Made by a program: the position numbers and the translations under genes. Below are positions 2,732-44,131 of a DNA stretch of 64,000 nt, piece after piece (positions within the stretch are counted from its first letter, which is position 1; the number at the start of each line of letters is the position of its first letter). Below the pieces are notes generated by a model, which ran no database searches, was not told the origin of the DNA, and saw only the letters and a program-made list of their open reading frames with translations. The stretch is from an uncultured Bacteroidota bacterium (lineage in GTDB: Bacteria > Bacteroidota > Bacteroidia > AKYH767-A > OLB10): contig CAADHD010000006.1 of NCBI GenBank assembly GCA_900696575.1, positions 1-64,000 on the forward strand. The letters are read 5' to 3'.

Positions 2732-3730
2732 ATGAAAAAGTTTCTCAAATTTTTGAAATGGGCAGGTGTCATACTCGTTGTAGTTGTTGGTGGCCTGTAT
2801 TCATTTGTCCAACTCACCTGGGACAAAAAGATTGATGCACCTTTTCCTGACATCAAAGCCACCACCGACAGCGCGGTAATTGCCCGCGGGAAGTACCTGG
2901 TAGAAGGACCGGCTCATTGCATCGGCTGCCATGTGCCAAACGAAAAACTGAAGCAGGTTTATACCGGAGAAATCATTCCCTTGTCGGGCGGGGGGGAAGC
3001 AACCTTCCCCGGTTTCGGAACTTTCAGAGCGCCTAATCTGACGCCTGACATGGAAACAGGAATCGGCAAAAGGACAGATGCCGAGTTGGCAAGGAGCATA
3101 CGCTATGGCGTACGTCCGGATGGAACTCCCATGATGCCGTTTATGAATTTTCAGGGCATGAGCGATGATGACCTCACGGCCATCATCTCCTTCCTGCGCT
3201 CGCAAACTGCCGTGAAGCATGAAATATTACCCAACGAAATAGGATTTATGGCAAAAGCTGTTTACGCTTTCGGGTTAATGAAAGCAGAAGGACCTAAAAG
3301 CACCCCGCCAAAGCATGTAGTTATAGATACTTCTATAGCTTACGGGCAATATGTGGCGAACAATGTGGCGCAGTGCCGAAACTGCCACGTAGAATACGAT
3401 ATGGTTACCGGTGAACAAATCGGTGCTGACTTTGCCGGCAAGGGCCTTTTCCCGGCCAATGATCATACAGACGGTTACTCTTTCATTTCACCCAACATTA
3501 CACCCCACCCCGAAACCGGCATCATGGCCCATTGGAACGAAGAGGCATTTGTATCCAGATTCAAAGCCGGGCCGGTGCACAATACTTCTCCTATGCCCTG
3601 GGCAATGATGGCTCGCATGAATGATGTTGAATTGAAAGCCGTGTATCGTTTCCTTCAATCGCTGGAACCGGTAGAGAATAAAATTGAAAAAACTGTTTAT
3701 GCTCCGGGAGAAAAACTGCCTGAGCAATGA
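2732..3730 (+). CDS. Di-haem cytochrome c family protein
   Basis: A 332-residue protein with an uncleaved N-terminal hydrophobic helix (residues ~10-28) that would anchor it in the inner membrane, facing the periplasm. Two covalent haem c sites are visible: CIGCH at residues 63-67 and CRNCH at 215-219. Downstream methionines (TPMMPF and PMPWAMM) are likely axial ligands. Each half also has the NLTP / ITPHPETGI motif seen in the cytochrome subunits of membrane alcohol and aldehyde dehydrogenases. It probably passes electrons from a periplasmic oxidase or dehydrogenase to the respiratory chain; no dehydrogenase subunit lies nearby. Last gene of the putative AraC-controlled run. Confidence 0.88.
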   Translation: MKKFLKFLKWAGVILVVVVGGLYSFVQLTWDKKIDAPFPDIKATTDSAVIARGKYLVEGPAHCIGCHVPNEKLKQVYTGEIIPLSGGGEATFPGFGTFRAPNLTPDMETGIGKRTDAELARSIRYGVRPDGTPMMPFMNFQGMSDDDLTAIISFLRSQTAVKHEILPNEIGFMAKAVYAFGLMKAEGPKSTPPKHVVIDTSIAYGQYVANNVAQCRNCHVEYDMVTGEQIGADFAGKGLFPANDHTDGYSFISPNITPHPETGIMAHWNEEAFVSRFKAGPVHNTSPMPWAMMARMNDVELKAVYRFLQSLEPVENKIEKTVYAPGEKLPEQ

Positions 3731-7992: not shown

Positions 7993-8128
7993 AAAAAATT
8001 TAAGGCGGCTAATTTCGGAAATGGGATGAGATTGAAGTGAAACGCCCGGCTTGTCATTAAATTGTCAAATCGGAGGCCGGTTCATTTCAAAACTGACAAA
8101 AGCAAACATCAACTGCAAAAGCCGCGGA

Positions 8129-8142: not shown

Positions 8143-10317
8143 GTGAGAAAAATCGCATTTCTGTTTTTATGGTTTACCGGTTTTCTTCCGTCTGATGCGC
8201 AACCTTTTTTAGTTACCGATTCTTCGGGCCGCGCACTTGAAGGGGCTGTTGTCATTATTAAAGATGCAGGAGGAAAAAACTTTTTTACGGTAACCGGAAA
8301 AGACGGAAAAACAGAAACTCTCAACCGGATTTCGTTTCCGGCTGTTGCTGAAATTTCCATGCTGGGTTATCATACGCAAATGATGACTCTGTATGCCAAC
8401 GAATCACTTTTCAGAATTTCATTACCATCAAAACAGTATCAGTTGCAGGATGTAATGATAACCGGCCAGGCTGCACCGGTTACTGTAAATGAAATCATGC
8501 AGGATGCCCTAATCATCAGCAGGGATAAAATGCAACTCCTCACTGCTTCCGGCCTTGAAAGCATCATGCAATACGAATCAACAGCCGCGATCAGCCGCGA
8601 TCCGGTACTGGGCAGCAACCTCAGCCTGCGCGGACTCTCAGGCAACAACATTAAATACCTTGTGGATGGCGTGCCTGTTACAGGCAGGATGAACGGTTTT
8701 GTTGACCTCTCTCAACTGAATATTGAAAACGCACGGCAGGTTGAAATTATCAATGGCCCTATGGCTGTCAATTACGGCAGCGATGCCCATGGCGGAGTGA
8801 TTAACATCATCACCAACGGAAAAAAAGAAAGCAAGGCAAGCATTTCAGGAATGGCAGAAACATCCGGAAGGTTTAATACAAACGCTATGGCTGATTACAC
8901 TTCAGGAAAATCATCTTTCGGAATCCATGCAGGCCGCGATTTTTTTGAAGGCTGGAATGCTGCACAGGAAACCCGCTGGAAACTTTGGAAACCTAAAACT
9001 CAATACACGGCCGCAATAAATACTTCGCACCGGTTTTCAGGATTAGTGCTTTCTGCTTCGGTTGATCTTCTGGATGAAAAACTTTCCAACAAAGGCGAAC
9101 CTGTCATTACCCCTTATTATGCTTATGCTTTTGATGAATATTACATCACACGCAGATGGATAAACCGTATTACTGCCGATTACATGATTCATAACGATTC
9201 GCGGATTAACACCACTCTGGCGTATTCGCTCTTCGACAGAATTAAAAACCGTTACCGCAAAGACATGGTGTCGCTGCAGGAAACAATGACCGGTCAGGCT
9301 GAGCAGGATACTTCATCTCTTAACTCACTTCACTTCAGAACAGATTACAGTTTTAAATCACCCGATAAAAAAATTTCATTCCTTACCGGAACGGAGTATA
9401 ACCATGAAACGGCAGAAGGAAAACGAACAGGCGGTAAACAAACCGAATACAATGCAGCCGCTTACGGTACTGCCGAATGGCAGGCAATGGTGAACTGGAG
9501 AATTATGCCCGGCATCCGATTTAATTATTTAAGTACTGTATCCTTCCGGCTGATTCCCGCCATGAGCATTCGCTATGATATAACGGAAAAATTATTTCTG
9601 CGCAGTAATTATTCCATGGGCTTCCGTCAGCCTTCGCTAAAGGAGCGGTTTATGGATTTTCAGGATGTGAATCACCACATCAGCGGAAATGAACACCTGC
9701 TTCCCGAAACTTCGCACAACTTTACCCTCTCTGTTAATGCCGAAAAACAAACCGGAAAAATTTTGCTTACTGCCGCTCCGCAGTTTTATTTCACCTCCAT
9801 CAGCGATATGATTACGCTGGCACAAGTAAATGAAAACAGCAATCTATACTCCTACATTAACATCGGCAAATTTCAGACTCAGGGCGTTACTGTTTCGCTG
9901 AGTGCAAGAGCCGGGAAACTGAATGCGAATGCCGGAATGTCAATTAACGGAATCAGAGATGATCTGATGAATAAAACCAATTACTCGCCCGGAGTTAACG
10001 GTTCGGTTATGTTCAAGCATGAAAAATCAGGCATAAGCACTGGCATGTTTATCCGCTGGTCGGGCCGCAGTTATGTTTATGCCACCGGTAATGCAGGAAT
10101 TACCTCACTCAGGCAGGAATCTTTTACGATGGCCGAAACTTCCGTATCAAAAAATTTTTTCAATAACAGAATCACTTTTCAAACTGGAATAAAAAATCTG
10201 TTTGATGTAAAACGCATTGAAACTTCAGGAACCGGTGGCATTCATTCCACTAACAGCCTGCTTGCCGGAACGGGTAGAAGCTATTTTGTAAAACTCACTT
10301 TAAGCACAGGAAAATGA
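8143..10317 (+). CDS. TonB-dependent outer-membrane receptor, haem-receptor (HmuR) type
   Basis: From the GTG start the product has 724 residues and opens with a signal peptide (VRKIAFLFLWFTGFLPSDA). A short carboxypeptidase-regulatory-like beta domain follows (~25-100), then a plug with SLRGLSGNNIKYLVDGVPV and VEIINGPMAVNYGSDAHGGVINI, then the barrel. In the barrel, FRQPSLKERF and GNEHLLPETS correspond to the FRAP and NPNL motifs of haem receptors, and a His pair lies between them. Two HmuY-type genes follow, the first overlapping by 4 bp. I infer haem or haemoprotein-iron uptake across the outer membrane, powered by TonB. A siderophore or other substrate cannot be excluded. Confidence 0.85.
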   Translation: MRKIAFLFLWFTGFLPSDAQPFLVTDSSGRALEGAVVIIKDAGGKNFFTVTGKDGKTETLNRISFPAVAEISMLGYHTQMMTLYANESLFRISLPSKQYQLQDVMITGQAAPVTVNEIMQDALIISRDKMQLLTASGLESIMQYESTAAISRDPVLGSNLSLRGLSGNNIKYLVDGVPVTGRMNGFVDLSQLNIENARQVEIINGPMAVNYGSDAHGGVINIITNGKKESKASISGMAETSGRFNTNAMADYTSGKSSFGIHAGRDFFEGWNAAQETRWKLWKPKTQYTAAINTSHRFSGLVLSASVDLLDEKLSNKGEPVITPYYAYAFDEYYITRRWINRITADYMIHNDSRINTTLAYSLFDRIKNRYRKDMVSLQETMTGQAEQDTSSLNSLHFRTDYSFKSPDKKISFLTGTEYNHETAEGKRTGGKQTEYNAAAYGTAEWQAMVNWRIMPGIRFNYLSTVSFRLIPAMSIRYDITEKLFLRSNYSMGFRQPSLKERFMDFQDVNHHISGNEHLLPETSHNFTLSVNAEKQTGKILLTAAPQFYFTSISDMITLAQVNENSNLYSYINIGKFQTQGVTVSLSARAGKLNANAGMSINGIRDDLMNKTNYSPGVNGSVMFKHEKSGISTGMFIRWSGRSYVYATGNAGITSLRQESFTMAETSVSKNFFNNRITFQTGIKNLFDVKRIETSGTGGIHSTNSLLAGTGRSYFVKLTLSTGK

Positions 10318-11324
10318 AACGGCTGATCGGATTCGGATTACTGATTTTACTTTTTGCTTCCTGCGAAAAAGAAGATACGGCTATTACACTTCCTCCGCCT
10401 GGCGATTTACAACTGATGACTGCCCGCATGGGGGTGAATTACGACACGATGGTATTCGTAAGCCTGAAAACAGGATTGGCTTTTTCACACTTTAACCGCA
10501 GTTATGATTTAGCATTTGAATCAACGGCTGACGGCTGGCGCATTTACCTGAACAGCGCACAATTAATGTTGGCAGGTTCCAAACCGGTGTTTGATTTAAC
10601 AGCAGCCGATACTGCCGGCATAATCTGGAAACCCGATGATGCTTCCCTGCATGATGATTCGCTGGCCATCGGAAAATGGTGTAACGATGCAGGACAAAAC
10701 ATAAAAGGCGTGGTATTCATTGACCGCGGCAAACCCTTCTTTACAGGTTCTGACCGTTTTCGCAAAATGCTGATTGATGAAGTGTCAGGCAATGAGTACA
10801 AAATCCGCTTTTCAAAACTGAATAATACCGGACTGACAGATTTTTTCCTTCCGAAAAATGCTGCTTATTCGCTTGTCTATTTTTCATTTGATAACAACGG
10901 TGAAATTAAAACGCTTGCTCCTCCCCGCAATGACTGGGATTTTGTTTTTACACGCTATACGCATACCTATTACGATGAGCCTCTCTCCTCGCCTTTCCGT
11001 TATTACTTAGTGAGTGGCGCAGTGCTCAACAAATGGAACGGCAGTCTTAATGAACTGGTAAAAAAAGACAGTACGGCAGGATACATTCCGTTTGAAGAAG
11101 CAAGCTATCCGGCCATTCTCGGCATTCCGCTGAATAACCGTGCCGATGCTGTGGGTTTTGACTGGAAATACTTTGACTTCAACAACAACACGTATTACAT
11201 CCGGCAGAATCAATGGTACCTGCTGAAAAATTTTGAAAGCATTTATTACAAACTGCGCTTTATTGATTTTTATGACGAAGCCGGCAACAAAGGCGCAGCC
11301 CGTTTTGAATTTCAACGCTTATAA
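10314..11324 (+). CDS. HmuY-family haem-binding lipoprotein
   Basis: A 336-residue lipoprotein with lipobox LLFASC (Cys at residue 17), so it is likely exposed at the outer membrane. The body follows HmuY-family patterns: YDTMVFVSLKTGLAFSHFNR followed by YDLAFE, a second strand set WDFVFTRYTHTYYDEPLS, and the diagnostic ending IYYKLRFIDFYDEAGNKG and FEFQRL. HmuY of Porphyromonas takes haem from host proteins and hands it to HmuR. The gene overlaps the receptor gene by 4 bp. Haem ligands cannot be assigned by eye. Being longer than the roughly 215-residue Porphyromonas protein, it may carry an extra domain. Confidence 0.82.
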   Translation: MKRLIGFGLLILLFASCEKEDTAITLPPPGDLQLMTARMGVNYDTMVFVSLKTGLAFSHFNRSYDLAFESTADGWRIYLNSAQLMLAGSKPVFDLTAADTAGIIWKPDDASLHDDSLAIGKWCNDAGQNIKGVVFIDRGKPFFTGSDRFRKMLIDEVSGNEYKIRFSKLNNTGLTDFFLPKNAAYSLVYFSFDNNGEIKTLAPPRNDWDFVFTRYTHTYYDEPLSSPFRYYLVSGAVLNKWNGSLNELVKKDSTAGYIPFEEASYPAILGIPLNNRADAVGFDWKYFDFNNNTYYIRQNQWYLLKNFESIYYKLRFIDFYDEAGNKGAARFEFQRL

Positions 11325-11352
11325 CTCACATACACCTTTAACATTTACACCA

Positions 11353-12591
11353 ATGAAAAAATCAATCGCACTGCTCGCATTTTTTACTCAGGCTGCCCTT
11401 GCTCAGCAAAATGAAACCGTAACCATCAATCCGGGCTATACCCATCAGGCTTTTTACAGCATGGGTAATGGAACAGTGGTTACTCCGGTTAATACAGACT
11501 GGGATCTGGCTTTTCAGATTTCGGGATTTGAAGCTTCCATACTTGTTAACTCCAAAAACAATGTAAGATTGTTTAATGCCGATCGGGAAGCTTCTGAATG
11601 GAATCAGATCACTCCTCTTGATACCATCGGTTATCTCAATTCATCCAATGAACTGTTTAACAGCGATACAAGCTGGAGGCGTGGCGCTTTCAATCAGACC
11701 AACAACCCGGCTGACCAGTTTGATCTTGGCTGGGGCAATTATGATTTTGCCACGCATATCGTAACCGGTGATTCGCTTTATTATATCCGCCTTGCTAACG
11801 GGCAGGTAAAAAAACTGCAGATTATCAATCTGGCGAATGGCGCATACAACTTCCGCTTTGCCGATACCGATGGCAGCAATGAAGTAACTGCTTCTCTCAG
11901 TAAATCTGCTTTTCAGGGAAAGCTGTTCGGCTACTATTCCATCGTAAATCAAACTACGCTTGACCGCGAGCCGCTGAAAAATGATTTTGATTTGGTGTTT
12001 ACTCAGTACTTGGCTGTGTTTCCGCTTACTTACAAAGTAACCGGTGTGTTGCAGAATGACAGCGTGCCGGCCATTAAAGTTTATCCTGTGGATGTTGCTG
12101 CTGCTACCACCAACGGACAGAATTATTCCTATCACATCAATACAATTGGTTACGACTGGAAAGCATTTGACCTTAACAACAACCAGTGGGTAATTGAAGA
12201 CTCACTGGTGTATTTTTTGAAAGACCGTAGCGGTAATTACTGGAAACTATGGTTTACCGGCTTTGGCGGATCAGCTAATGGAAATTTCCATTTCACCAAG
12301 GAGCAGGTTACTCCGCTCAACATATCAGAACCTCAATCGCTGAATATCATTTCTGTTTATCCCAATCCCGCCAATGATTTACTCAACTTGATAGTTGACG
12401 GAATGAATGCAGCAGCCATACAATTGATTATTGCTGACATGAGCGGACGCAAGGTGCAGGAGCAAACACTTACGAACCATGCCGGATGGAATCATCATCA
12501 GATAAATTTGAAAAAACTTACCGGTGGGATGTATTCCGTGCAATTGATTTCAGAAGGGTACATTACCATGCTTAAGGTGATGAAGGAGTAA
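11353..12591 (+). CDS. HmuY-like protein with T9SS sorting domain
   Basis: The ATG at 11353 gives a clean signal peptide (MKKSIALLAFFTQAALAQ) and a 412-residue product; an upstream in-frame ATG lies inside the previous gene. Residues ~20-315 repeat the HmuY pattern: NTDWDLAFQISGFE, a central NDFDLVFTQYL, and the ending YFLKDRSGNYWKLWFTGFGG. Residues ~330-412 form a type A sorting domain (VYPNPANDLLNL, IADMSGRKVQEQ, LTGGMYSVQL, ending KVMKE). The protein should therefore be exported by the type IX system and be released or attached to the cell surface, unlike its lipid-anchored neighbour. Its role as a secreted haem scavenger is inferred. Confidence 0.82.
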   Translation: MKKSIALLAFFTQAALAQQNETVTINPGYTHQAFYSMGNGTVVTPVNTDWDLAFQISGFEASILVNSKNNVRLFNADREASEWNQITPLDTIGYLNSSNELFNSDTSWRRGAFNQTNNPADQFDLGWGNYDFATHIVTGDSLYYIRLANGQVKKLQIINLANGAYNFRFADTDGSNEVTASLSKSAFQGKLFGYYSIVNQTTLDREPLKNDFDLVFTQYLAVFPLTYKVTGVLQNDSVPAIKVYPVDVAAATTNGQNYSYHINTIGYDWKAFDLNNNQWVIEDSLVYFLKDRSGNYWKLWFTGFGGSANGNFHFTKEQVTPLNISEPQSLNIISVYPNPANDLLNLIVDGMNAAAIQLIIADMSGRKVQEQTLTNHAGWNHHQINLKKLTGGMYSVQLISEGYITMLKVMKE

Positions 12592-16388: not shown

Positions 16389-18695
16389 TCAATTCATCAA
16401 CAGCAACTTGGTAATGCACGTATTCTTTCCTTCGGTATCGGAGCTGAAGATGAGATACACTCCGCTTTTTACTTTCTGGCCTTCAAAGTTTTTTCCGTAC
16501 CAGATGGCTTGCCCGCCCAATGCATTGGATTCGTAAACCAGCGTACCTGATACATCGGTAATTTTAAACCGTCCGTTATTCACCAATCCGGTAATTGCAA
16601 TCGGCCCTTCATAACCCGGACGAACAGGATTAGGGTAAGCATACGTGTTATCGCAAAACTCTTTTCCAAGCGTAGCATCGCTGCGGTAACTCATCATGCC
16701 CTTATCTGTGCCTATGAAAACTTCGCCTGAATTCTGGTTGATGCCAAGCGCTGTAATGTTATTCGATGGCAACGGGCTGTTGCTCATGTTAAAGCGAAGC
16801 AGTTCTTCCGTACCGTCAGCCGAAACAAGAAATACACCTGAGTTTTCAGTGCCGAACCATTTGCGGTTGGCGCCATCAATGGCAATGGCTGAGACCACTT
16901 CCGTTTCGAGCAGATACTGATACGAGCCATCGGCATAAATCAACACCTGTTGTGCATCAGCGCTTATACCACCCTGCAACACACTGCCCGGTGAATAATA
17001 TACAGCCACGCCTTTGGCTGTGCCAACCCATAGCTGACCTTGCTGGTCTTCTGCAATGCAGCGTACATCAGCGCTGGGCAATCCTCCTGTACCGGTACCT
17101 GCACTCAACAAGCGGTAACGTGTGCTACCTGTTGGTTTTGTATCATCAAAAACAAGGATACCGCTTTCATTGAAATCAGCCCATTTCTGGTTGTAACTGT
17201 CAATCAGTAATTCTCCGGCAAAAATATTTCCGGTGATAGCGCCCGGAAAACTGAATGACTGCCATGTACCATCCGTTTTGTAAACCGACAAAGGAGCAGC
17301 CGCTGAATTGACAACCCAAAGATTATTGTTGCTGTCAAAAGCCATGTCGCCTATTTCGCATACACCGGGATTGCCCGCGGGAACCTGCAGCGAAGAATTC
17401 TGCTCATTGAAAAAGCCTTTTACGTTTCCGTTTTCAAATTCAAGAACTCCCACCACCTTACTGCCTATGAAAAGATGTTCGCTGTTGCGTTTATCAACGG
17501 CAATAGACATGGGGTCGAAAAACGTATCGAGGCTGGCTATGGTGGAAGAAACCGATTTGGAATTAAAGGTTGTCCATTGCTCGTCTTTGAATCGTGAGAA
17601 GCCGTCTTTTGAATAGGTAGTATTCCATTTTCGGCCGCGCTCGCTGTGACAAACCCACAGTACATCATTCACAACTTCAATTTCTGCCGACATGGCCGAC
17701 CTCGGTCCGTTAGGAACAATGCCGGTGTACTGCTGCGAATTAACAGCACGAACCAAACCTTTCTCATTGTCGGCAATCCACACCGTAAGATTATCATCCG
17801 TCAGTGCATCGCGCATGTTGTTTACTTCATTGGGAATGTTGATCTGCAGAATTTCCTGCAGGCTCTGGTCAATCACTTTTACATCGTAAGTTCCGGTAAA
17901 AATCAGTTTACCTGATGACTGGCGAAGCGTTCTTCCATCATAAGAGCCGATACCGGTGTTGTTCCATGCTGATCCGTTGTATTCATATAAGCGGTCATCC
18001 GGTCCGCTGCGGTAATTCACCAATAAACGGTTGGAATACCAGATGATATTCTTGTAAACAATTCCCGATTGCGGAGCAAGAATCTGCGACCATGACCCGA
18101 GAAAATTAAGATTGGGAGAATTAATGGGCGCTGAATAAACGCCTGAGTCGGTGGCGGCATACAGAAGATTTCCATCGGTGGCCGTTCCGTAAATTTTATT
18201 GATGCTGCCGGTAAAAGTCATCTGATAGGTTTCTTTGATTTCGCTTTTTACCATGTCAAGTTTTATCAATCCGAAATCGGCTGACAGGTAGGCAAAGTTT
18301 CCGGCAAACAGAATGTCATTTACTTTTTTGGAGCCGATGATATTTTTCCGTTTGATATCGGAAATGTTTACTGTATTGTCTCCGAAAATCAAATCGAGAT
18401 TTCCGTTTTCGTAGTAAATCACCAGCACACCCATGGAGGCATGGTAACGCATGAAACTGATGCCTACATCCGACAGGGCATTGACTTTTGAAAGAAGTTC
18501 CAGACTGTTGTCGGAGGTATTGAAAATAAAAATGCCGTCAGTGGCAGCGCAGATGATTTTATCATTCTGGCGGTCAACAAAGCGGCCTTTGTTTAAGGGA
18601 AGATGCGAGCGCCACTGGCCGATGGCCGTTTGTGCAATAGAAATGTTTTGAGCAGAAAGAAAAATCAGAAAGAAAAAAATCCTGAGCAGTTGCAT
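16389..18695 (-). CDS. porZ: T9SS component PorZ
   Basis: A 768-residue protein with a signal peptide (FFFLIFLSAQNISIAQ) followed by AIGQWRSHLPLNKG. Two beta-propeller domains come next; repeat-like blades include NALSDVGISFMRYH, the segment NISDIKRKNIIGSKKVNDI, and FAYLSADFGLIKLD, which fit PorZ. The C-terminus (from ~685) is a type A sorting domain: YAYPNPVRPGYEG, FKITDVSGTLVYES, KSGVYLIFSSD. In Porphyromonas, PorZ sits on the cell surface, binds anionic lipopolysaccharide and delivers it to the PorU sortase complex. It is upstream of recO on the same strand, separated by about 170 bp. Confidence 0.9.
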   Translation of the reverse strand: MQLLRIFFFLIFLSAQNISIAQTAIGQWRSHLPLNKGRFVDRQNDKIICAATDGIFIFNTSDNSLELLSKVNALSDVGISFMRYHASMGVLVIYYENGNLDLIFGDNTVNISDIKRKNIIGSKKVNDILFAGNFAYLSADFGLIKLDMVKSEIKETYQMTFTGSINKIYGTATDGNLLYAATDSGVYSAPINSPNLNFLGSWSQILAPQSGIVYKNIIWYSNRLLVNYRSGPDDRLYEYNGSAWNNTGIGSYDGRTLRQSSGKLIFTGTYDVKVIDQSLQEILQINIPNEVNNMRDALTDDNLTVWIADNEKGLVRAVNSQQYTGIVPNGPRSAMSAEIEVVNDVLWVCHSERGRKWNTTYSKDGFSRFKDEQWTTFNSKSVSSTIASLDTFFDPMSIAVDKRNSEHLFIGSKVVGVLEFENGNVKGFFNEQNSSLQVPAGNPGVCEIGDMAFDSNNNLWVVNSAAAPLSVYKTDGTWQSFSFPGAITGNIFAGELLIDSYNQKWADFNESGILVFDDTKPTGSTRYRLLSAGTGTGGLPSADVRCIAEDQQGQLWVGTAKGVAVYYSPGSVLQGGISADAQQVLIYADGSYQYLLETEVVSAIAIDGANRKWFGTENSGVFLVSADGTEELLRFNMSNSPLPSNNITALGINQNSGEVFIGTDKGMMSYRSDATLGKEFCDNTYAYPNPVRPGYEGPIAITGLVNNGRFKITDVSGTLVYESNALGGQAIWYGKNFEGQKVKSGVYLIFSSDTEGKNTCITKLLLMN

Positions 18696-32965: not shown

Positions 32966-33055
32966 TGCAACCAGCCTCCAAGGGAATTGAAACATCATGG
33001 AGACTGTGATCTCACGGAAACACCTTACGTTTGCCCGACCAAAAAATCAAAACTT

Positions 33056-33679
33056 ATGTTCACCGGAATGCTTCATACACACACGCTAACCGTGATGTTG
33101 TTTCTTGTTTTATACCTTATAAAAACCGCTTTACTGGTTTCAGGCATGAACAATGCGCTGGATAAATTCACTGCCAAAACCAAAGTAGCAGAAATGATCA
33201 TTAGTACATTATTTCTGCTTACAGGTATATACCTTGCTTTTAATTCAGGACAATTAGGAAGCTGGTTTTGGATTAAACTGATTGCCGTATTCACCTCTAT
33301 ACCATTGGCCATCATTGCTTTCAAAAGAAAAAGAAAGCCGCTTGCTTTACTTGCTTTAATTTTTCTGGTATATTCTTATGGTATATCCGAAACCAAAAGC
33401 CCGTACTTTAAAAAAGAATTAACAGGAAATTTTGCGGGATTAAGCGGAACGGAATTGGGAAAAAAAGTTTACGAAAGTAATTGCATTGCCTGCCATGGCA
33501 GCGATGGTAAATTAGGCTTAAGCGGTGCCAAAGATTTAACAGCTTCTCCAATGTCATTTGATGAGCAATTAGAGACTGTGAGGAATGGCAAGAACAGTAT
33601 GATGGCATATCAGAAACTGCTTACAGACGAACAGATACAAGCGGTTACCGAATATGTGCATTCGATGAAACAACAATAA
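33056..33679 (+). CDS. SirB2-like membrane domain fused to cytochrome c
   Basis: The ATG at 33056 gives 207 residues (an in-frame ATG at 32987 adds 23 unlikely residues). Residues ~5-115 form four hydrophobic helices with the pattern LHTHTLTVMLFLVLYLIKTA, KTKVAEMIISTLFLLTGIYL and WIKLIAVFTSIPLAIIAFKR, resembling SirB2-type proteins. The C-terminal ~90 residues are a class I cytochrome c domain: haem site CIACH at residues 143-147 and likely axial Met in SMMAYQKLLTDEQI. The haem domain would face the periplasm. Partner and substrate are unknown. It ends 6 bp before hflX. Confidence 0.85.
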   Translation: MFTGMLHTHTLTVMLFLVLYLIKTALLVSGMNNALDKFTAKTKVAEMIISTLFLLTGIYLAFNSGQLGSWFWIKLIAVFTSIPLAIIAFKRKRKPLALLALIFLVYSYGISETKSPYFKKELTGNFAGLSGTELGKKVYESNCIACHGSDGKLGLSGAKDLTASPMSFDEQLETVRNGKNSMMAYQKLLTDEQIQAVTEYVHSMKQQ

Positions 33680-36223: not shown

Positions 36224-37663
36224 TTATCTCTTCTGTTTTCTTTTTTTGAAATCAAAACCTACAGGGCTGCCAACGCGCGCCATGGCACAACGGAAGCCTA
36301 TAAAATCAGTGGAAAGGCGTTCGTCCAAATAACGTCTTGACCCCGGAGACATCCAGTAAGCACGGTCTTTCCATGAGCCGCCTTTGTAAACGCGTGCATG
36401 GTCATCAACCATTGAGGTCTGACCGTAATTATAAACCACTTCGGGCTCATCGCCATCGAGAAAGTTTCTGTTATCGGCTTTCCGGTAATTTCTGCGGCCT
36501 TCGTTTTCCTGTTCGGTTACATCACGGTACATAATCCTGCCAAGACTGTCTTTTTCTGCAATCTGACCTTCTTCATCGGTCAACTGGGTTTTGAAAACGT
36601 TTCCGCGATATGAATTGAAATCGTCTTTATCTTCAGGTGAAAGCGGACGGTAAACATCAGCTACCCATTCGGAAACATTGCCTCCCATGTTATACAAGCC
36701 ATAATCATTGGGAATAAAACTGATGACCGGAGCAGTAATATCAGCATTATCATTCAGAAAACCGGCAGTACCCATATTATCTCCTCTTCCTCGTTTGAAA
36801 TTGGCAAGCATTTGTCCTTTATATTTTTCAGAAGCATCGCGAACTATGTGTCCATTCCAGGGATATTGTTTACGGCTGGTTACACGCTCATAAACTGTAT
36901 TTCCGATTTGAGCAAGAGAAGCATATTCCCATTCTGCTTCGGTGGGCAGTCGATAGCGGGGTAAAAGGATACCGTCTTCCATTCTAACTTTACGGGTATC
37001 GCGGTTTGGATTGTAATCATGCAGATCGCTTTTTACTAAACCTTCGTATTGAGCGGCAAGGTAGGCATCGGTATTAAAATTATCTTCGTTAACCTGAGCC
37101 GGGTTGACGCGAAGAATTCCTTCGCGAATCAGGATGGCTTCGTTTACTCTGTCGGTACGCCAGGCTGCGAAATCATTTGCCTGAAGCCAGTTAACTCCAA
37201 CAACAGGATACTGTTGATAGGCCGGATGGCGCAGGTAATTCTCAACCAGTGGTTCAAGGTAGGCAAGTTTTGAGCGCCAAACCAGGGTATCTGGCAATGC
37301 TTTACGGTAAACTTCAGGATAATCGGTACCGAAAACACGATCGAGCCAATAAAGGTATTCAAGGTAATGGATATTGGCAATTTCAGTTTCGTCCATATAA
37401 AAGGATGAAACCGTCATTCTGCGCGGAATGTTATCCCAGTCAATAGTAATATCCTGTTCTGTACGCCCCATGGTAAAAGTTCCTCCTTCAACAAGAATTA
37501 ACCCCGGACCGGTTTCCTGTTCTGTATAAGGAACCACTTCAAAACCTCCGTTTTTTTCATTGTTATACTCCCAGGCAGTAACAGCAGATTGCTGTTTGGT
37601 GCAGGAAGTGGTAATAAGCATGCCTGCTGAGAGTATGGTGCTGAAAATGATGGATTTTTTCAT
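36224..37663 (-). CDS. gldJ: Gliding/T9SS lipoprotein GldJ
   Basis: A 479-residue outer-membrane lipoprotein (lipobox LITTSC, Cys at residue ~21) with a formylglycine-generating-enzyme (SUMF1) fold that is not known to be catalytic. The match is to GldJ rather than GldK: LVEGGTFTMGRTEQDITIDW, NIPRRMTVSSFYMDETEIAN, then PDTLVWRSKLAYLEPLVENY, LRHPAYQQYPVVGVNW, and AWRTDRVNEA. A long insert precedes RYRLPTEAEWEYAS, and the end has ARVYKGGSWKDRAYWMSPGS. In Flavobacterium GldJ is needed for T9SS function and stabilises GldK. It has its own -7 box and lies next to the porP-like gene and near porU/porV. Confidence 0.85.
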   Translation of the reverse strand: MKKSIIFSTILSAGMLITTSCTKQQSAVTAWEYNNEKNGGFEVVPYTEQETGPGLILVEGGTFTMGRTEQDITIDWDNIPRRMTVSSFYMDETEIANIHYLEYLYWLDRVFGTDYPEVYRKALPDTLVWRSKLAYLEPLVENYLRHPAYQQYPVVGVNWLQANDFAAWRTDRVNEAILIREGILRVNPAQVNEDNFNTDAYLAAQYEGLVKSDLHDYNPNRDTRKVRMEDGILLPRYRLPTEAEWEYASLAQIGNTVYERVTSRKQYPWNGHIVRDASEKYKGQMLANFKRGRGDNMGTAGFLNDNADITAPVISFIPNDYGLYNMGGNVSEWVADVYRPLSPEDKDDFNSYRGNVFKTQLTDEEGQIAEKDSLGRIMYRDVTEQENEGRRNYRKADNRNFLDGDEPEVVYNYGQTSMVDDHARVYKGGSWKDRAYWMSPGSRRYLDERLSTDFIGFRCAMARVGSPVGFDFKKRKQKR

Positions 37664-37692
37664 GTTTTAATGATGTTTTTTAAAATGGTCAG

Positions 37693-37700
37693 CAAATGTA
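37693..37700 (-). promoter_or_regulatory. -7 box of gldJ
   Basis: The minus strand reads TACATTTG, 29 nt before the gldJ ATG at 37663, giving a leader of about 25 nt. Confidence 0.45.
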
Positions 37701-37725
37701 TATTTCCTTAATTGATTTACCAAAA

Positions 37726-38724
37726 CTAAAATGCAGGACAGCTTATTGTGCGGAAACGCTTCTTTTTGGGCCTGCATTCGAACTGCATTCCGAAACTGAT
37801 TTCATGCGAACCGGCTGTGGTATTATTAGTAAGTTTGGAAATGGTGATGTCGTAGCTGTAGCCAAATTTAAATACTCCGCGCTGGAAGCCAATTAAGGCA
37901 ATAGCTGATTCAGCAGAAAAACCATCAGTCATGTTGCAACGGAACCATAAACCACCTACAACAGGAGAGTGAAGGATATAGGCTCCGAGATTCAGGTAGT
38001 TAAAACCTGCTTGCTGCTGAAAAATTGCATTGGGTGATAAATAGGTTCCGTTATCGCGGTTTGAGCTGAATTTGTAACTGCCTGTATTACCTAATGGAAG
38101 CATTGCTCCGGCATGAGCGGTAATTTTCATAGGCAGTTCGCTGGTTCCCTGAACAATGAATGCTTCATCAGGTTGAGTAAGGTGATGCACGGCAATGCCT
38201 CCGTAAAATGAGCTTGAATAAGCGAGAATTCCGGCAGAGAAATCGGCAAATGAGCGGCTTTCACTCGGGCGGGTTTCCTGAGTGGCATAGATATATCCGT
38301 AACGAGGGTCAATCATATCGCCAAAGGTTAGTTTATCCCAGTCTAATTTTTTCTGAACATACGTGGCCTGCAACCCGAAGCGGACTGAAAAATCTCTTGC
38401 AATGTTCAACTGGTAAGCATAAACACCGGCTATGTTGGTGGTGGAAATTGTTCCTTCACCGGCTTTATCATTCAGAATGTTAAGAGCTACACCGCCATTA
38501 AGCAAATCCACATGCTGATCATAAGAAGCGCTATAGGTAATGTAGGTTTTGGCAAGTGCCGGCCATTGATTGCGGTAGTTCATGTTGATACGCGGGCAAC
38601 GCACTGAACCGGCAAAGGCAGGGTTAATGTAGATGGGATTGGCATAGAACTGAGTGAAAAGCGGGTCCTGCGCACTTACGCTTGCACTGAGCATAACCAT
38701 CACGGCAATTAGAATCTTTCTCAT
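37726..38724 (-). CDS. PorP/SprF-family T9SS outer-membrane protein
   Basis: From ATG 38724 the product has 332 residues with signal peptide MRKILIAVMVMLSASVSAQ; a longer reading frame upstream has no coding character. The mature start QDPLFTQFYANPIYINPAFA, then GSVRCPRINMNYRNQWPAL, is the signature of PorP/SprF proteins, which form an outer-membrane barrel associated with T9SS. Family members bind SprB-like adhesins or link PorE to the peptidoglycan. This may be the PorP of the machine or a cargo-specific SprF; the absence of a neighbouring adhesin argues for the former but does not prove it. Confidence 0.87.
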   Translation of the reverse strand: MRKILIAVMVMLSASVSAQDPLFTQFYANPIYINPAFAGSVRCPRINMNYRNQWPALAKTYITYSASYDQHVDLLNGGVALNILNDKAGEGTISTTNIAGVYAYQLNIARDFSVRFGLQATYVQKKLDWDKLTFGDMIDPRYGYIYATQETRPSESRSFADFSAGILAYSSSFYGGIAVHHLTQPDEAFIVQGTSELPMKITAHAGAMLPLGNTGSYKFSSNRDNGTYLSPNAIFQQQAGFNYLNLGAYILHSPVVGGLWFRCNMTDGFSAESAIALIGFQRGVFKFGYSYDITISKLTNNTTAGSHEISFGMQFECRPKKKRFRTISCPAF

Positions 38725-38850
38725 GGTAGGTTTCACAATTGAAAACTTATACGCAGTATCTCTGATAGGTTTCAAAAAAAGGGATTTTCTTGCAATAATT
38801 TTTTTGGGCAATGCGTTAATCCGGCTGTGGAAATGAATTTTAACTTTCGA

Positions 38851-38858
38851 CAAAAGTA
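38851..38858 (-). promoter_or_regulatory. Likely -7 box of the porP-like gene
   Basis: The minus strand reads TACTTTTG in the divergent region between porP and porU. It would give a leader of about 120 nt before ATG 38724. The porU promoter on the other strand is less clear; TAACTTTC near 38841 is a weak candidate. Confidence 0.4.
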
Positions 38859-38937
38859 ATTGTTACAACTGAAACCACTAAATGATAAACAATTGCTCAT
38901 TTTTCAGTTACTTAATTTTGACCTGTTATCAACCAGT

Positions 38938-41900
38938 ATGAATCTCAACCCGAAAAGTTTATTTGCAGTGTCTTTACTGTTTACCTCTGTTTATGGCTAT
39001 TCTCAATCTCAAAAAACAGCAAGTAACCGTGAATTATCGTTTGAACTGCAATGGAAACAACCGTTACGCGTTCAAATTGCAGAAAATGAATGGATAGATG
39101 TATTAAGTTTTGACGGAGGCACCTACAATCAACAGAACAATCATCTTCCCTCCTTTTCTTTCTCCTTCTCTTCTCCGGCAGTATTTGATTATGATGAACT
39201 GAGCGGCAGTATTGAAAATGCCGTTTACCAGCCTTTGAGCGAAAGCCAGCTGATCAGAAATGCCGAACTGATAAAAAATGATGTGATCCCCGATGTTCAA
39301 ACAGGCCTTACGCGCAAAGTTGCCTACACCACCATCAGCTTTATTCCCATCAGAAAAACAGCAGGTGGATTTGAAAAGTTGATTTCATTCTCTTTGAAGC
39401 TTTATTCAACCGGAAGAAGAATAGCTGAAAAAACCTCTGTAACTCCCTGGGCAGCTCATTCTGTTCTTGCCTCAGGCAAATGGTATAAAGTGGCTGTTAA
39501 AGACGATGGCATTTATAAACTTGATTACAACTTTTTCCGTCAGCTTGGATTTGATATGGCTACACTTGACCCGCGTACCATCCGTGTGTTTGGAAATGGA
39601 ACCGGCATGTTGCCCGAGGCCAACAGCGCATGGCGCCCAGATGATTTGATGGAAAATGCTATTGAAGTAATTGGCGAAGCCGATGGAATATTCAACCCTT
39701 CTGATTACGTACTGTTTTTTGGCCGATCGCCTGACCGGTGGACATTCAATCCGTCAACTTCGAGGTACAGCCACAGCAAACATCTGTATCACGATTACAA
39801 CCATTACTTCATCACGGCTGATTACCGTTCAGGTATTCCGAAACGAGTGCCATCGCAGCCTTCCCTTCAGCCTCAGCCTAATGATTTTAATGTTACTACG
39901 GTTGATCATTTAGCCTTTCATCACAACAATCTTAAAAATTTTATCAAGTCAGGCCGTCATGCCTACGGTGAAACCTTCGATATAAATCTGTCTCAGAGTT
40001 TCGGGTTCAATGTGCCCTCCGTTTCAACTGCTGAGCAGGTATGGTATAACATCAACTTTATGGCGCGTTCAACTTTACCCAGCAGTTTTACTATTTCGCA
40101 CACAGGCCAGTTATTATGTACAGCCAGCATGGCGGCCGTTAGTACCGGTACATATGCCGATTATGGAACACTCAAAGACTGCAAAGGAAATTTTAACCCT
40201 TCCGGAAATGCCGTTACTTTCGACATCACTTATAATTTCAATCCCTCCGCTCCTTCTTCAGTCGGATATCTTGATTACATTGAAATAAATGCCCGTAAAC
40301 AATTGGCCGTACAAACCAATGCATACACCTTCCGCGACAAGGCTGCTTTTTTGAATAACGCTTCGCAGGCACGTTATACCATTCAGGGTTACAATAACGC
40401 TTATCGGGTTTGGGATGTAACCGATCCTTACAACATCACAGAACAGCAGGTAAATCAGGACGGCTCGTTCATTGCAGATGCAACCGTCTTAAAAGAATTT
40501 ATTCTCTTCCGCAATCAGAATGCTGTTGCTCCGGTAAACAAAGGACTTGTACCCAATCAGGATTTGCATGGTCTGGATGCAGCAGAAATGATCATCATCA
40601 GTCATCCGTTATTTCTTTCACAAGCAAACCGCCTTGCCGATATGCACCGCCAGCATGATGGCCTCAGTATTCATGTAGTTGACATCAACCAGGTTTACAA
40701 TGAATTTTCATCCGGCACACGCGATGTGCCTTCCCTGCGCGATTTTCTTAAAATGATGTACGACCGCAGCGGTGGGCAGTATCCGAAATATCTATTGCTT
40801 TTTGGTGATGGCTCTTATGATAACAAAGGCGAGTATGCTTCCAACACCAATTTTATTCCTACCTATCAGAGCGAAAACAGCATCAGCGTTCTCAGCTCTT
40901 ACCAGTCGGATGATTTCTTCGGTTTTCTTGATGACAACGAAGGTTTCTGGCCTCCGGGCAATACATCCAACCTGCTTGATTTAGGCATTGGCAGGCTACC
41001 GGCAAAATCCGTAGCCGAAGCTACCGCTATGGTTGATAAAATAAGCCGCTACATGACAACAGGAAATCTTGGTAATCCAACAGCATGCAATGAAGCCAAT
41101 TCAAGCCTTGGTGACTGGAGAAATATAATCTGTCTTGTTGCCGATGATGAAGACAGCGGTGCTTACCTTGATCAGTCTGACACCTTGATGAAAAACCTGA
41201 ATGCATATACCCTGCGCTTCAACCTTGATAAAATTTATATTGATGCTTATCCGCAAATTTCAACAGCAGGCGGGCAGCGTTATCCTGATGTTAATACCGC
41301 TATCAGTAATCGCATAAATAAAGGCGCATTGGTGATTAACTATGTTGGTCATGGAGGTGAGATTGGCTGGGCACATGAAAAAATTCTTGACAACAATATG
41401 ATTGGTAACTGGCAGAATCCTTATCGTATGCCTTTGTTTGTTACTGCTACCTGCGAATTCAGCCGTTTTGATGATCCGGGAAGGACTTCTTCAGGCGAAT
41501 ATGTTTTACTGAAAGGCGATGGCGGAGGAATAGGCCTTTATACTACAACACGTTTAGTGTATGCCTATCAGAATGCAGTGTTGAACAAGTTTGTGTTCAG
41601 GCGGTTATTTGAACCTGTTAATGGAGAAATGCCAAGGCTTGGCGATATATACCGCCTCTCGAAACTCGATTTTATAAATGACAACACCCGTAACTTCTGC
41701 ATGCTTGGCGATCCTGCTTTGCGCCTGGCTTATCCAAAATATGATATTGTAGCAACCGGCATCAATAATCAGCCATTGAATGGGGTGAATGATACCATCA
41801 ATGCTCTAAGCAAGGTTACCATTTCGGGCGAAGTAAGAAACAACGGGGTGAAGATGCATGACTTTAACGGGGTGATTTATCCTACAGTGTATGATAAAGC

Positions 41901-42816
41901 CTCACTCATGAAAAGCCTGAGCAACGACAGCGGCAGCCCGCAACGAACATTCTCCTTACAGAAAAATATTCTCTTTAAAGGAAAAGCGCAGGTTACTAAT
42001 GGCCATTTCAGTTTTACGTTTATAGTTCCGAAAGATATTGCCTACAACTTCGGCAAAGGAAGGTTGAGTTTTTATGCTCAAAATGGGAAGGAAGATGCAT
42101 CAGGATTTTATGACGAATTGATTGTCGGGGGAATTAATCCCAATGCTGCTGCCGATGATAAAGGCCCCGAAATAAAACTTTATATGAACGATGAGAAATT
42201 CGTTTTTGGCGGAATTACCAATGAGAATCCCGTAATCTATGCCGTAGCTTCCGATGAAAGCGGAATCAATACCGTTGGCAATGGAATAGGCCATGACATT
42301 GTTGCCGTGCTTGACAATAAAATAGATCCTGTATATGTGCTGAATGATTTTTACGAAGCTGATATGGATGATTACACAAAAGGAAAAGTCATTTACAGGC
42401 TTGAAAACCTTGAGGAAGGAAATCATTCATTAAAACTTAAAATCTGGGACATTTACAATAACTCCAGCGATGCCTATACCGAATTTACAGTAGCCGGCTC
42501 TGCTGAAATTGCTTTAAAACATGTTTTGAATTATCCTAATCCGTTCACCACTCATACATCCTTTTTCTTTGAACATAATCAGGCTTGTAACGGAATGGAT
42601 GTTCAGGTGCAGATTTTTACAGTAAGCGGTAAACTGGTAAAAACGCTGAATCAGCGTATAATCTGCGATGGATTCCGGAGTGATTCCATTTCGTGGAATG
42701 GTACTGATGAATATGGCGACCGGATTGGTCGCGGGGTTTATATTTATCGTCTTAAAGTGAGAAATGATAAGGGCGCTACGGCAGATAAATACGAGAAACT
42801 CGTGCTACTCAGGTAA
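38938..42816 (+). CDS. porU: T9SS C-terminal signal peptidase (sortase) PorU
   Basis: From ATG 38938, 1292 residues with signal peptide MNLNPKSLFAVSLLFTSVYG (the frame is open from 38860). It is a C25 (gingipain-like) cysteine peptidase that removes the sorting domain from T9SS cargo and attaches A-LPS to it. The domain order is an N-terminal beta region (~25-560) and a caspase-like catalytic domain (~580-960) with KYLLLFGDGSYDNKG. His805 lies in YVGHGGEIGW and Cys839 in TATCEFSRFDDPGR. Ig-like domains then lead to a C-terminal domain with LNYPNPFTTHTSFFFEHNQA, TVSGKLVKTL and GRGVYIYRLKV. Start of the porU-porV pair. Confidence 0.95.
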   Translation: MNLNPKSLFAVSLLFTSVYGYSQSQKTASNRELSFELQWKQPLRVQIAENEWIDVLSFDGGTYNQQNNHLPSFSFSFSSPAVFDYDELSGSIENAVYQPLSESQLIRNAELIKNDVIPDVQTGLTRKVAYTTISFIPIRKTAGGFEKLISFSLKLYSTGRRIAEKTSVTPWAAHSVLASGKWYKVAVKDDGIYKLDYNFFRQLGFDMATLDPRTIRVFGNGTGMLPEANSAWRPDDLMENAIEVIGEADGIFNPSDYVLFFGRSPDRWTFNPSTSRYSHSKHLYHDYNHYFITADYRSGIPKRVPSQPSLQPQPNDFNVTTVDHLAFHHNNLKNFIKSGRHAYGETFDINLSQSFGFNVPSVSTAEQVWYNINFMARSTLPSSFTISHTGQLLCTASMAAVSTGTYADYGTLKDCKGNFNPSGNAVTFDITYNFNPSAPSSVGYLDYIEINARKQLAVQTNAYTFRDKAAFLNNASQARYTIQGYNNAYRVWDVTDPYNITEQQVNQDGSFIADATVLKEFILFRNQNAVAPVNKGLVPNQDLHGLDAAEMIIISHPLFLSQANRLADMHRQHDGLSIHVVDINQVYNEFSSGTRDVPSLRDFLKMMYDRSGGQYPKYLLLFGDGSYDNKGEYASNTNFIPTYQSENSISVLSSYQSDDFFGFLDDNEGFWPPGNTSNLLDLGIGRLPAKSVAEATAMVDKISRYMTTGNLGNPTACNEANSSLGDWRNIICLVADDEDSGAYLDQSDTLMKNLNAYTLRFNLDKIYIDAYPQISTAGGQRYPDVNTAISNRINKGALVINYVGHGGEIGWAHEKILDNNMIGNWQNPYRMPLFVTATCEFSRFDDPGRTSSGEYVLLKGDGGGIGLYTTTRLVYAYQNAVLNKFVFRRLFEPVNGEMPRLGDIYRLSKLDFINDNTRNFCMLGDPALRLAYPKYDIVATGINNQPLNGVNDTINALSKVTISGEVRNNGVKMHDFNGVIYPTVYDKASLMKSLSNDSGSPQRTFSLQKNILFKGKAQVTNGHFSFTFIVPKDIAYNFGKGRLSFYAQNGKEDASGFYDELIVGGINPNAAADDKGPEIKLYMNDEKFVFGGITNENPVIYAVASDESGINTVGNGIGHDIVAVLDNKIDPVYVLNDFYEADMDDYTKGKVIYRLENLEEGNHSLKLKIWDIYNNSSDAYTEFTVAGSAEIALKHVLNYPNPFTTHTSFFFEHNQACNGMDVQVQIFTVSGKLVKTLNQRIICDGFRSDSISWNGTDEYGDRIGRGVYIYRLKVRNDKGATADKYEKLVLLR

Positions 42817-42843
42817 GTAAAGCCTGCTATTTATACCGCTTTC

Positions 42844-42851
42844 TATATTTG
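42844..42851 (+). promoter_or_regulatory. -7 box of porV
   Basis: TATATTTG matches TAnnTTTG and lies 28 bp after the porU stop and 80 bp before the porV ATG. porV can therefore be transcribed separately from porU. Confidence 0.45.
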
Positions 42852-42931
42852 CCCCCCGTTTTGCAACAATATCCGCTTTTATCCGTTAATAGCCCCATCT
42901 GACTTTACTCTTTAATCTGAATTTTTTACTG

Positions 42932-44131
42932 ATGAATCATATCCATAAAAAAACAGCAGCCGCATTTATGTTCGCTGCTTTGATCTTTTCTCAAACCCAG
43001 GCACAGGACAAATCAAACCTTCTTGGCCAGTTAAACACCATTACCACTGCCGTTCCTTTTCTGATGATATCGCCTGATGCCCGTGCAGGCGGAATGGGCG
43101 ATGCCGGTGTTGCCTCAGAACCTGATGCACATGCCATACATTGGAACCCTGCTAAAATGTCTTTTTATAATGGCAAGGGAATAGGTTCAGTATCATACAC
43201 ACCCTGGCTACGCAGCCTGGTAAACGATATTTATCTTGCTTATGCTACCGGATATATTAAGCCCAGCCCCGATCAGGCCATTGGCGGTTCTATCCGTTAC
43301 TTCTCACTCGGGCAAATTGATTTTACCGATGTAAATGGCGGCTCGCTAGGCTCTTTTAACCCCAGCGAATTTGCTTTGGATGTTGCCTACTCTCGCAAAC
43401 TCAGCGAAGATTTTTCAGGTGGAATTGCCTTGCGGTACATCCACTCCAACCTTACCGGTGGTATTCCCGTGCCCGGAGGTATCTCTTCTAAAGCAGGAAA
43501 TTCTGTTGCCGCTGATATTGCCGTGTATTATCAGAAAGATGTAGAAGTTGGTAAGAAACCCGCTGTGTTTTCATGGGGCTTAGCTATAACTAACATTGGC
43601 TCAAAAATTTCTTATACCGAAACCGGTGATAAAGATTTTATTCCTATTAACCTTCGTTTTGGCCCTTCGCTAAAACTGAAACTGAACGATTACAATGAAC
43701 TTACCATTAACCTTGACTTTAATAAACTGCTGGTACCAACACCCCCGATTTATTCTTCAGACTCAGCAGGTAATAATCTTATTTTATATGGTAAAGATCC
43801 GAAAGTGGGAGTTGCTGCCGGCATTTTTCAATCATTCAGTGATGCGCCTGACGGATTTAAAGAAGAGTTGAAAGAAATAAACATTGCAGGCGGCTTAGAA
43901 TACTGGTACGATAAACAATTTGCATTCCGCACAGGATATTTCTTTGAATCGGCTCAGAAAGGAAACCGTAAATACTTCACCCTGGGTGCCGGTTTACGTT
44001 ACAGCGTTTTCGGACTTGACTTCTCTTACCTTATTCCGACACAGCAGCGCAATCCGCTTGAAAACACTTTGCGCTTCAGCCTTTCCTTCAAATTCGGAGA
44101 TACAGGCAAAGAGCGCGAAAGCGGTGAGTAA
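42932..44131 (+). CDS. porV: T9SS outer-membrane protein PorV
   Basis: A 399-residue FadL-like outer-membrane barrel that binds T9SS cargo at the translocon and shuttles it to the PorU complex. The signal peptide is AAFMFAALIFSQTQAQ, and the mature part has the family motif PFLMISPDARAGGMGDAGVA, followed by AHAIHWNPAKMSF and VSYTPWLRSLVNDI. The C-terminal strand LRFSLSFKFGD is barrel-like. It sits directly downstream of porU, the usual Bacteroidota order. Confidence 0.94.
   Translation: MNHIHKKTAAAFMFAALIFSQTQAQDKSNLLGQLNTITTAVPFLMISPDARAGGMGDAGVASEPDAHAIHWNPAKMSFYNGKGIGSVSYTPWLRSLVNDIYLAYATGYIKPSPDQAIGGSIRYFSLGQIDFTDVNGGSLGSFNPSEFALDVAYSRKLSEDFSGGIALRYIHSNLTGGIPVPGGISSKAGNSVAADIAVYYQKDVEVGKKPAVFSWGLAITNIGSKISYTETGDKDFIPINLRFGPSLKLKLNDYNELTINLDFNKLLVPTPPIYSSDSAGNNLILYGKDPKVGVAAGIFQSFSDAPDGFKEELKEINIAGGLEYWYDKQFAFRTGYFFESAQKGNRKYFTLGAGLRYSVFGLDFSYLIPTQQRNPLENTLRFSLSFKFGDTGKERESGE

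Follow-up and report, generated by a model that had tools for sequence, protein, structure and literature searches.

The window, that is the whole 64,000-nucleotide stretch of DNA that was analyzed, corresponds to contig 6 of a 2.87-Mb genome with a completeness score of 100%. It includes three co-directional genes, named here R, L and S, that form an operon-like cassette spanning nucleotides 8143 to 12591:

Nucleotides 8143 to 10317, + strand: R, a TonB-dependent receptor (HmuR-like in role), 724 amino acids, GTG start codon.
Nucleotides 10314 to 11324, + strand: L, an HmuY-family lipoprotein, 336 amino acids, with a lipobox leading to C17.
Nucleotides 11353 to 12591, + strand: S, an HmuY-family protein that begins with a Sec signal peptide and ends in a T9SS type A sorting domain, 412 amino acids.
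Nucleotides 12355 to 12588, + strand: the sorting domain at the C terminus of S (about residues 335-412), starting at YPNP.

The L start codon, at nucleotide 10314, lies inside the receptor stop codon (ATGA), and as a consequence the two genes overlap by 4 bp, as an earlier note on this DNA had described for the receptor and an HmuY lipoprotein. A gap of 28 nucleotides separates the L stop codon from the S start codon, the ATG at 11353, which is a better start than the mechanically assigned TTG at 11233. The R ORF is open from a TTG at nucleotide 8062, and the GTG at 8143 is a plausible start because a good signal peptide begins there (VRKIAFLFLWFTGFLPSDA, followed by Q). The ORF check returned the coordinates that had been proposed. 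No further HmuY matches besides L and S were found in the 2.87-Mb genome.

Both L (1.1e-10, 42.2 bits) and S (7.7e-8, 33.0 bits) match the Pfam HmuY family PF14064, for which the gathering cut-off is 27. The L lipobox reads FASC17 and is followed by E-K-E-D, generating the signal C-E-K-E-D. Mutagenesis in Capnocytophaga canimorsus identified C-X-K-(D/E)2 as the optimal signal for surface export of lipoproteins (PMC5080379), and the L sequence is an exact match to it. The pattern C-X-K-[DE][DE] is kept in 33 of the 57 L homologues with a recognised lipobox. By its lipobox and export signal L is therefore predicted to be a surface-exposed lipoprotein.

The sorting domain of S was identified as Por_Secre_tail (PF18962, 1.2e-13, above the cut-off) and as the NCBIfam T9SS type A domain (TIGR04183, 1.1e-10), in agreement with the earlier reading of this HmuY-like protein as carrying both a signal peptide and such a domain, and its model matches the C-terminal domain of mirolase (8qb1, Z 10.2). 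Together with the Sec signal peptide, which was read from the sequence, the domain makes S a predicted T9SS type A cargo. The window also includes a T9SS gene set, located at nucleotides 16389-18695 (- strand) and 36224-44131, in which the following genes were identified:

Nucleotides 16389 to 18695, - strand: PorZ, the T9SS anionic-LPS delivery protein (NF052228, 615.6 bits, cut-off 260).
Nucleotides 38860 to 42816, + strand: PorU, the T9SS sortase (NF033707, 1352 bits, cut-off 420).
Nucleotides 42932 to 44131, + strand: PorV, the T9SS shuttle/channel protein (NF033710, 507 bits, cut-off 250).

A PorP/SprF protein and GldJ, both with strong NCBIfam matches, are encoded in the window as well. 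The host thus encodes a predicted T9SS machinery able to serve S, and the proposal that one HmuY copy is built for type IX export is supported by both its sorting domain and the Por genes in the window.

Structural models of both proteins were generated with AlphaFold2 from alignments of 81 S homologues and 49 L homologues and were confident (pLDDT 92.3 for L and 92.1 for S). The top structural matches of both were PinO (6r2h), Porphyromonas gingivalis HmuY (3h8t), the Bacteroides vulgatus protein 3u22, BfrB (8b6a) and Tfo (6eu8), with Z values of about 12-15 over about 135-160 aligned residues. The L model gave Z 15.0 to PinO and 14.5 to HmuY, and for L the HmuY-type values were far above those of unrelated structures; the S model gave 13.2 and 13.0, respectively, and in each case about 135 residues could be superposed on HmuY. 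Foldseek ranked HmuY-type entries first for L and mixed with unrelated beta proteins for S, and for this reason the fold match of S rests on the VIA alignment, Pfam and the profile-sequence matches. Profiles were needed to reach HmuY among PDB sequences, since direct PDB searches from a single sequence found no HmuY: the L profile matched BfrB at 2.9e-11 and HmuY at 3.6e-6, and the S profile matched them at 9.8e-7 and 1.4e-3. The predicted folds of S and L, both matching solved HmuY-type proteins, speak for the HmuY reading in the earlier note. Comparison of S with L by hhalign (probability 100, E 1.2e-53, 277 columns) showed them to be full-length relatives, and therefore paralogues. An internal duplication was also considered but is not claimed, the hhalign support being moderate for S (94.7%) and absent for L (39%).

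S and L are larger than HmuY and include an extra middle region. The HmuY segment that carries the two His ligands is replaced in both by a stretch about 100 residues longer that is unalignable by sequence; His134 and His166 of HmuY could not be mapped onto either protein by sequence alignment, which reaches no further than the strands at the two termini, and because the ligand-bearing region is replaced these ligands are not transferable. HmuY-family proteins are expected to provide two axial haem ligands, either His-His or Met-Met. In S the candidate is H135, conserved in 73 of 81 homologues and hence not invariant, and the aromatic residues are also highly conserved. In L the candidates are M39, M85 and H217, each conserved in 33 of 49 homologues, none invariant, and all present in the L protein of the window. 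That the candidates differ is compatible with the two paralogues ligating haem in different ways, without demonstrating it.

R has Pfam matches above cut-off to the TonB-dependent receptor barrel (4.8e-24) and Plug (3.2e-17) domains. FRxP and NxxL-PE motifs occur in many TonB receptors. The FRQPS and GNEHLLPE motifs quoted in the earlier note are both found in R, the former at residue 494, but they say little by themselves; the stronger point is a histidine, H511, located between FRxP and NxxL, that is invariant in 71 of 71 aligned receptors and also in a 15-row alignment. H701 is invariant as well (numbering is from the GTG at 8143; from the TTG at 8062 these residues become H538 and H728). 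The presence of FRAP and NxxL boxes with a His in between has been singled out as a hallmark of receptors for haem and haemoglobin, and mutagenesis of the receptor His in other systems gave mixed outcomes (PMC9331221); R has this arrangement. The motif pattern matched no other ORF among the receptors in the fetched loci, hence there was no comparison set. Scores of R against TIGR01785 and TIGR01786 were 80 and 98 bits, below the curated cut-offs of 317 and 324, and R is therefore not filed in those subfamilies; its B12 and haem scores were close, and the family models fail to tell haem receptors apart from those for B12 or siderophores.

Every tetrapyrrole pathway includes the HemB step. No match to HemB (PF00490) or to the ferrochelatase HemH (PF00762) was found in the genome under study or in any of 24 family genomes, with positive controls for both searches. 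Since HemB is shared by all these pathways, the organism probably makes no haem, and haem synthesis appears to have been wholly lost across the family. The genome includes three haem-copper oxidase subunit I (COX1) genes, and two genes for cytochrome c proteins lie within the window:

Nucleotides 2732 to 3730, + strand: a cytochrome c protein.
Nucleotides 32987 to 33679, + strand: a SirB-like membrane domain joined to a cytochrome c domain.

From its gene content the host seems unable to make haem yet has respiratory haem enzymes. FecCD, HemS and CobN/HmuS-type genes were not found in this genome, and CobN/HmuS (PF02514) had no match in any of the 24 family genomes (positive control). Three family genomes (G001, G013 and G014), one of them from the same genus, have no HmuY match and also lack HemB and HemH matches, which argues that another haem route exists in the family; on these gene inventories, the R-L-S cassette is not the sole one.

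Scanning GTDB representatives with S yielded 80 loci across Bacteroidota. R, L and S were all present within the fetched stretch at 64 of them, a number that, as the loci were retrieved through S, measures how often S accompanies R and L. The arrangement is therefore not a chance one, and the triad is widespread in environmental Bacteroidota, Lishizhenia, Fluviicola and Taibaiella being examples of cultivable relatives that have it; the survey proposed in the earlier note, for HmuY domains with T9SS tails beside a receptor, thus had a positive outcome. The genes run SRL in 44 cases and RLS in 19; among the other loci, many are truncated where their contigs end. L037 and L080, which are of full length, have S without R or L. 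At about 10 loci genes for an IsdE-like binding protein, a FecCD permease, an ATPase and HemS/ChuX lie between S and R or adjoin them, and in other relatives the neighbours are a CbiX chelatase with PepSY, DUF2271 and PepSY-flavodoxin reductases. DUF6607 (PF20311), a domain of unknown function, is encoded near the cassette in 23 of the 80 loci (among them L012, L020, L030, L052, L059, L061 and L067), which hints at a haem-related role for it. As a separate observation, the lipoprotein of Flavobacteriaceae and Weeksellaceae is about 470 amino acids long, compared to 320-345 elsewhere, and scores weakly against L (loci L061, L066-L068, L070, L072, L073, L075, L078, L079 and L081).

Taken together, the HmuY fold, the HemS and haem-ABC neighbours, the invariant receptor histidine and the haem need of the host point to haem as the substrate. 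The cassette is probably a route for scavenging haem in this bacterium, and we consider it likely that it is an outer-membrane haem-acquisition system in which S is the outer and L the proximal binder and the haem is used intact. We infer haem binding, export, localization and direction of transfer for the three proteins as follows. S would cross the outer membrane via type IX secretion, after which it would be attached to the surface through A-LPS or released, and would capture haem from the surroundings. L would be a surface-exposed lipoprotein that binds haem while held beside the receptor, and R would import the haem through the outer membrane, powered by TonB. The haem could pass from S to L and then to R, or from either binder to R; a two-stage relay from S to L is possible. 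S and L would most likely descend from a single HmuY-type ancestor that was duplicated, the copies then taking on the roles of outer and proximal binder. Imported haem would probably go intact into cytochromes, given that the genome seems to lack the capacity for tetrapyrrole synthesis of any kind. A wider reading, that this is a phylum-wide two-haemophore system with different ligation in the two proteins and sequential handover, acting as a main supply of intact haem in an auxotrophic respiring environmental family, seems to us rather doubtful.

The main alternative, which we regard as a real possibility although short of an even chance, is that S and L bind haem as alternatives to each other, one cell-distal or soluble and the other on the surface, or each serving different haem sources, and that both deliver straight to R. 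The different candidate residues conserved in the two proteins and the occurrence of S without R and L at the two full-length loci mentioned above would fit such independence, as would the T9SS-exported HmuY of Flavobacterium columnare, which is described alone (PMC9618737); on the other hand, the retention of all three genes together at 64 of 80 loci suggests joint action. S could instead act with the receptor as a structural component or lid, as SusD and BtuG do with theirs, carrying no haem itself. A type A sorting domain can lead to attachment at the surface, the window encodes PorU, PorV and PorZ, and the genes are frequently adjacent, but S has a complete HmuY-type predicted fold with its own conserved aromatic residues and His, and we find this explanation unlikely. 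Import of some other porphyrin-like or metal ligand (cobalamin, a siderophore or protoporphyrin) is quite unlikely: although R scores for B12 models are near those for haem models and BtuC-like permeases and CbiX chelatases are found near the cassette in some relatives, the HmuY fold, the HemS neighbours, the invariant receptor His and the haem auxotrophy alongside haem oxidases all argue against it. Cobalamin uptake was rejected as a candidate; no cobalamin riboswitch was found in the window or in 14 relatives.

Most of what is known about haem uptake in Bacteroidota comes from pathogens of the mouth, the gut and fish. Fold, synteny, receptor His and auxotrophy uphold the central idea of the earlier note, haem uptake by a pair of lipid-anchored and T9SS-exported HmuY-family proteins, but its statement that known HmuY systems use a protease-released lipoprotein is outdated, since the F. 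columnare HmuY C6N29_01035 includes a Por_Secre_tail and is reported to be T9SS-secreted (PMC9618737). That protein resembles S in combining an HmuY domain with the sorting domain; unlike S, it is described there without a lipoprotein paralogue or a cognate receptor, and cells lacking it are reported to show normal growth and normal infection (PMC9618737). T9SS export of an HmuY protein has thus been reported before, and the novelty lies in the pairing within one cassette and in haem auxotrophy throughout the family: no description was found in the open-access literature of a conserved triad in which the two HmuY paralogues are exported differently, or of such a triad in an apparently wholly haem-auxotrophic family. 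If true, a conserved receptor with two export-distinct HmuY paralogues in environmental lineages would broaden the haemophore concept to include scavenging of haem from other microbes, and haem capture would become a nutritional function of the T9SS. The apparent loss of haem synthesis across the family, with haem oxidases in this member, makes haem dependence directly testable.

The cassette has the general organization of HmuY-HmuR of P. gingivalis, in which a TonB receptor adjoins a surface lipoprotein that shares the fold of L and the host is also a haem auxotroph. P. gingivalis, however, has hmuSTUV, no CobN/HmuS being found here, and a single HmuY of about 190 residues that is freed by proteolysis and not exported by the T9SS, in place of two paralogues, and the His134 and His166 ligands of that protein are not identifiable in S or L by sequence. 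HfpR-HfpY of Flavobacterium psychrophilum likewise consists of a receptor and a distant HmuY relative, and HfpY binds haem even though its sequence has very little in common with those of other HmuY proteins; there is one HmuY-type protein in that system, another gene lies between HfpY and the receptor, and no T9SS tail is mentioned (PMC9331221). In the Porphyromonas endodontalis hmu operon a T9SS type A protein, POREN0001_0445, is found alongside HmuY, as is the case here, but it is described as beta-barrel-like and not as an HmuY homologue (PMC11208336). RhuH of Riemerella anatipestifer is a secreted haemophore of the Flavobacteriales that is described as having a unique fold and is vesicle-borne (PMC11967795); its structure resembles that of L weakly (8xjc, Z 3.0).
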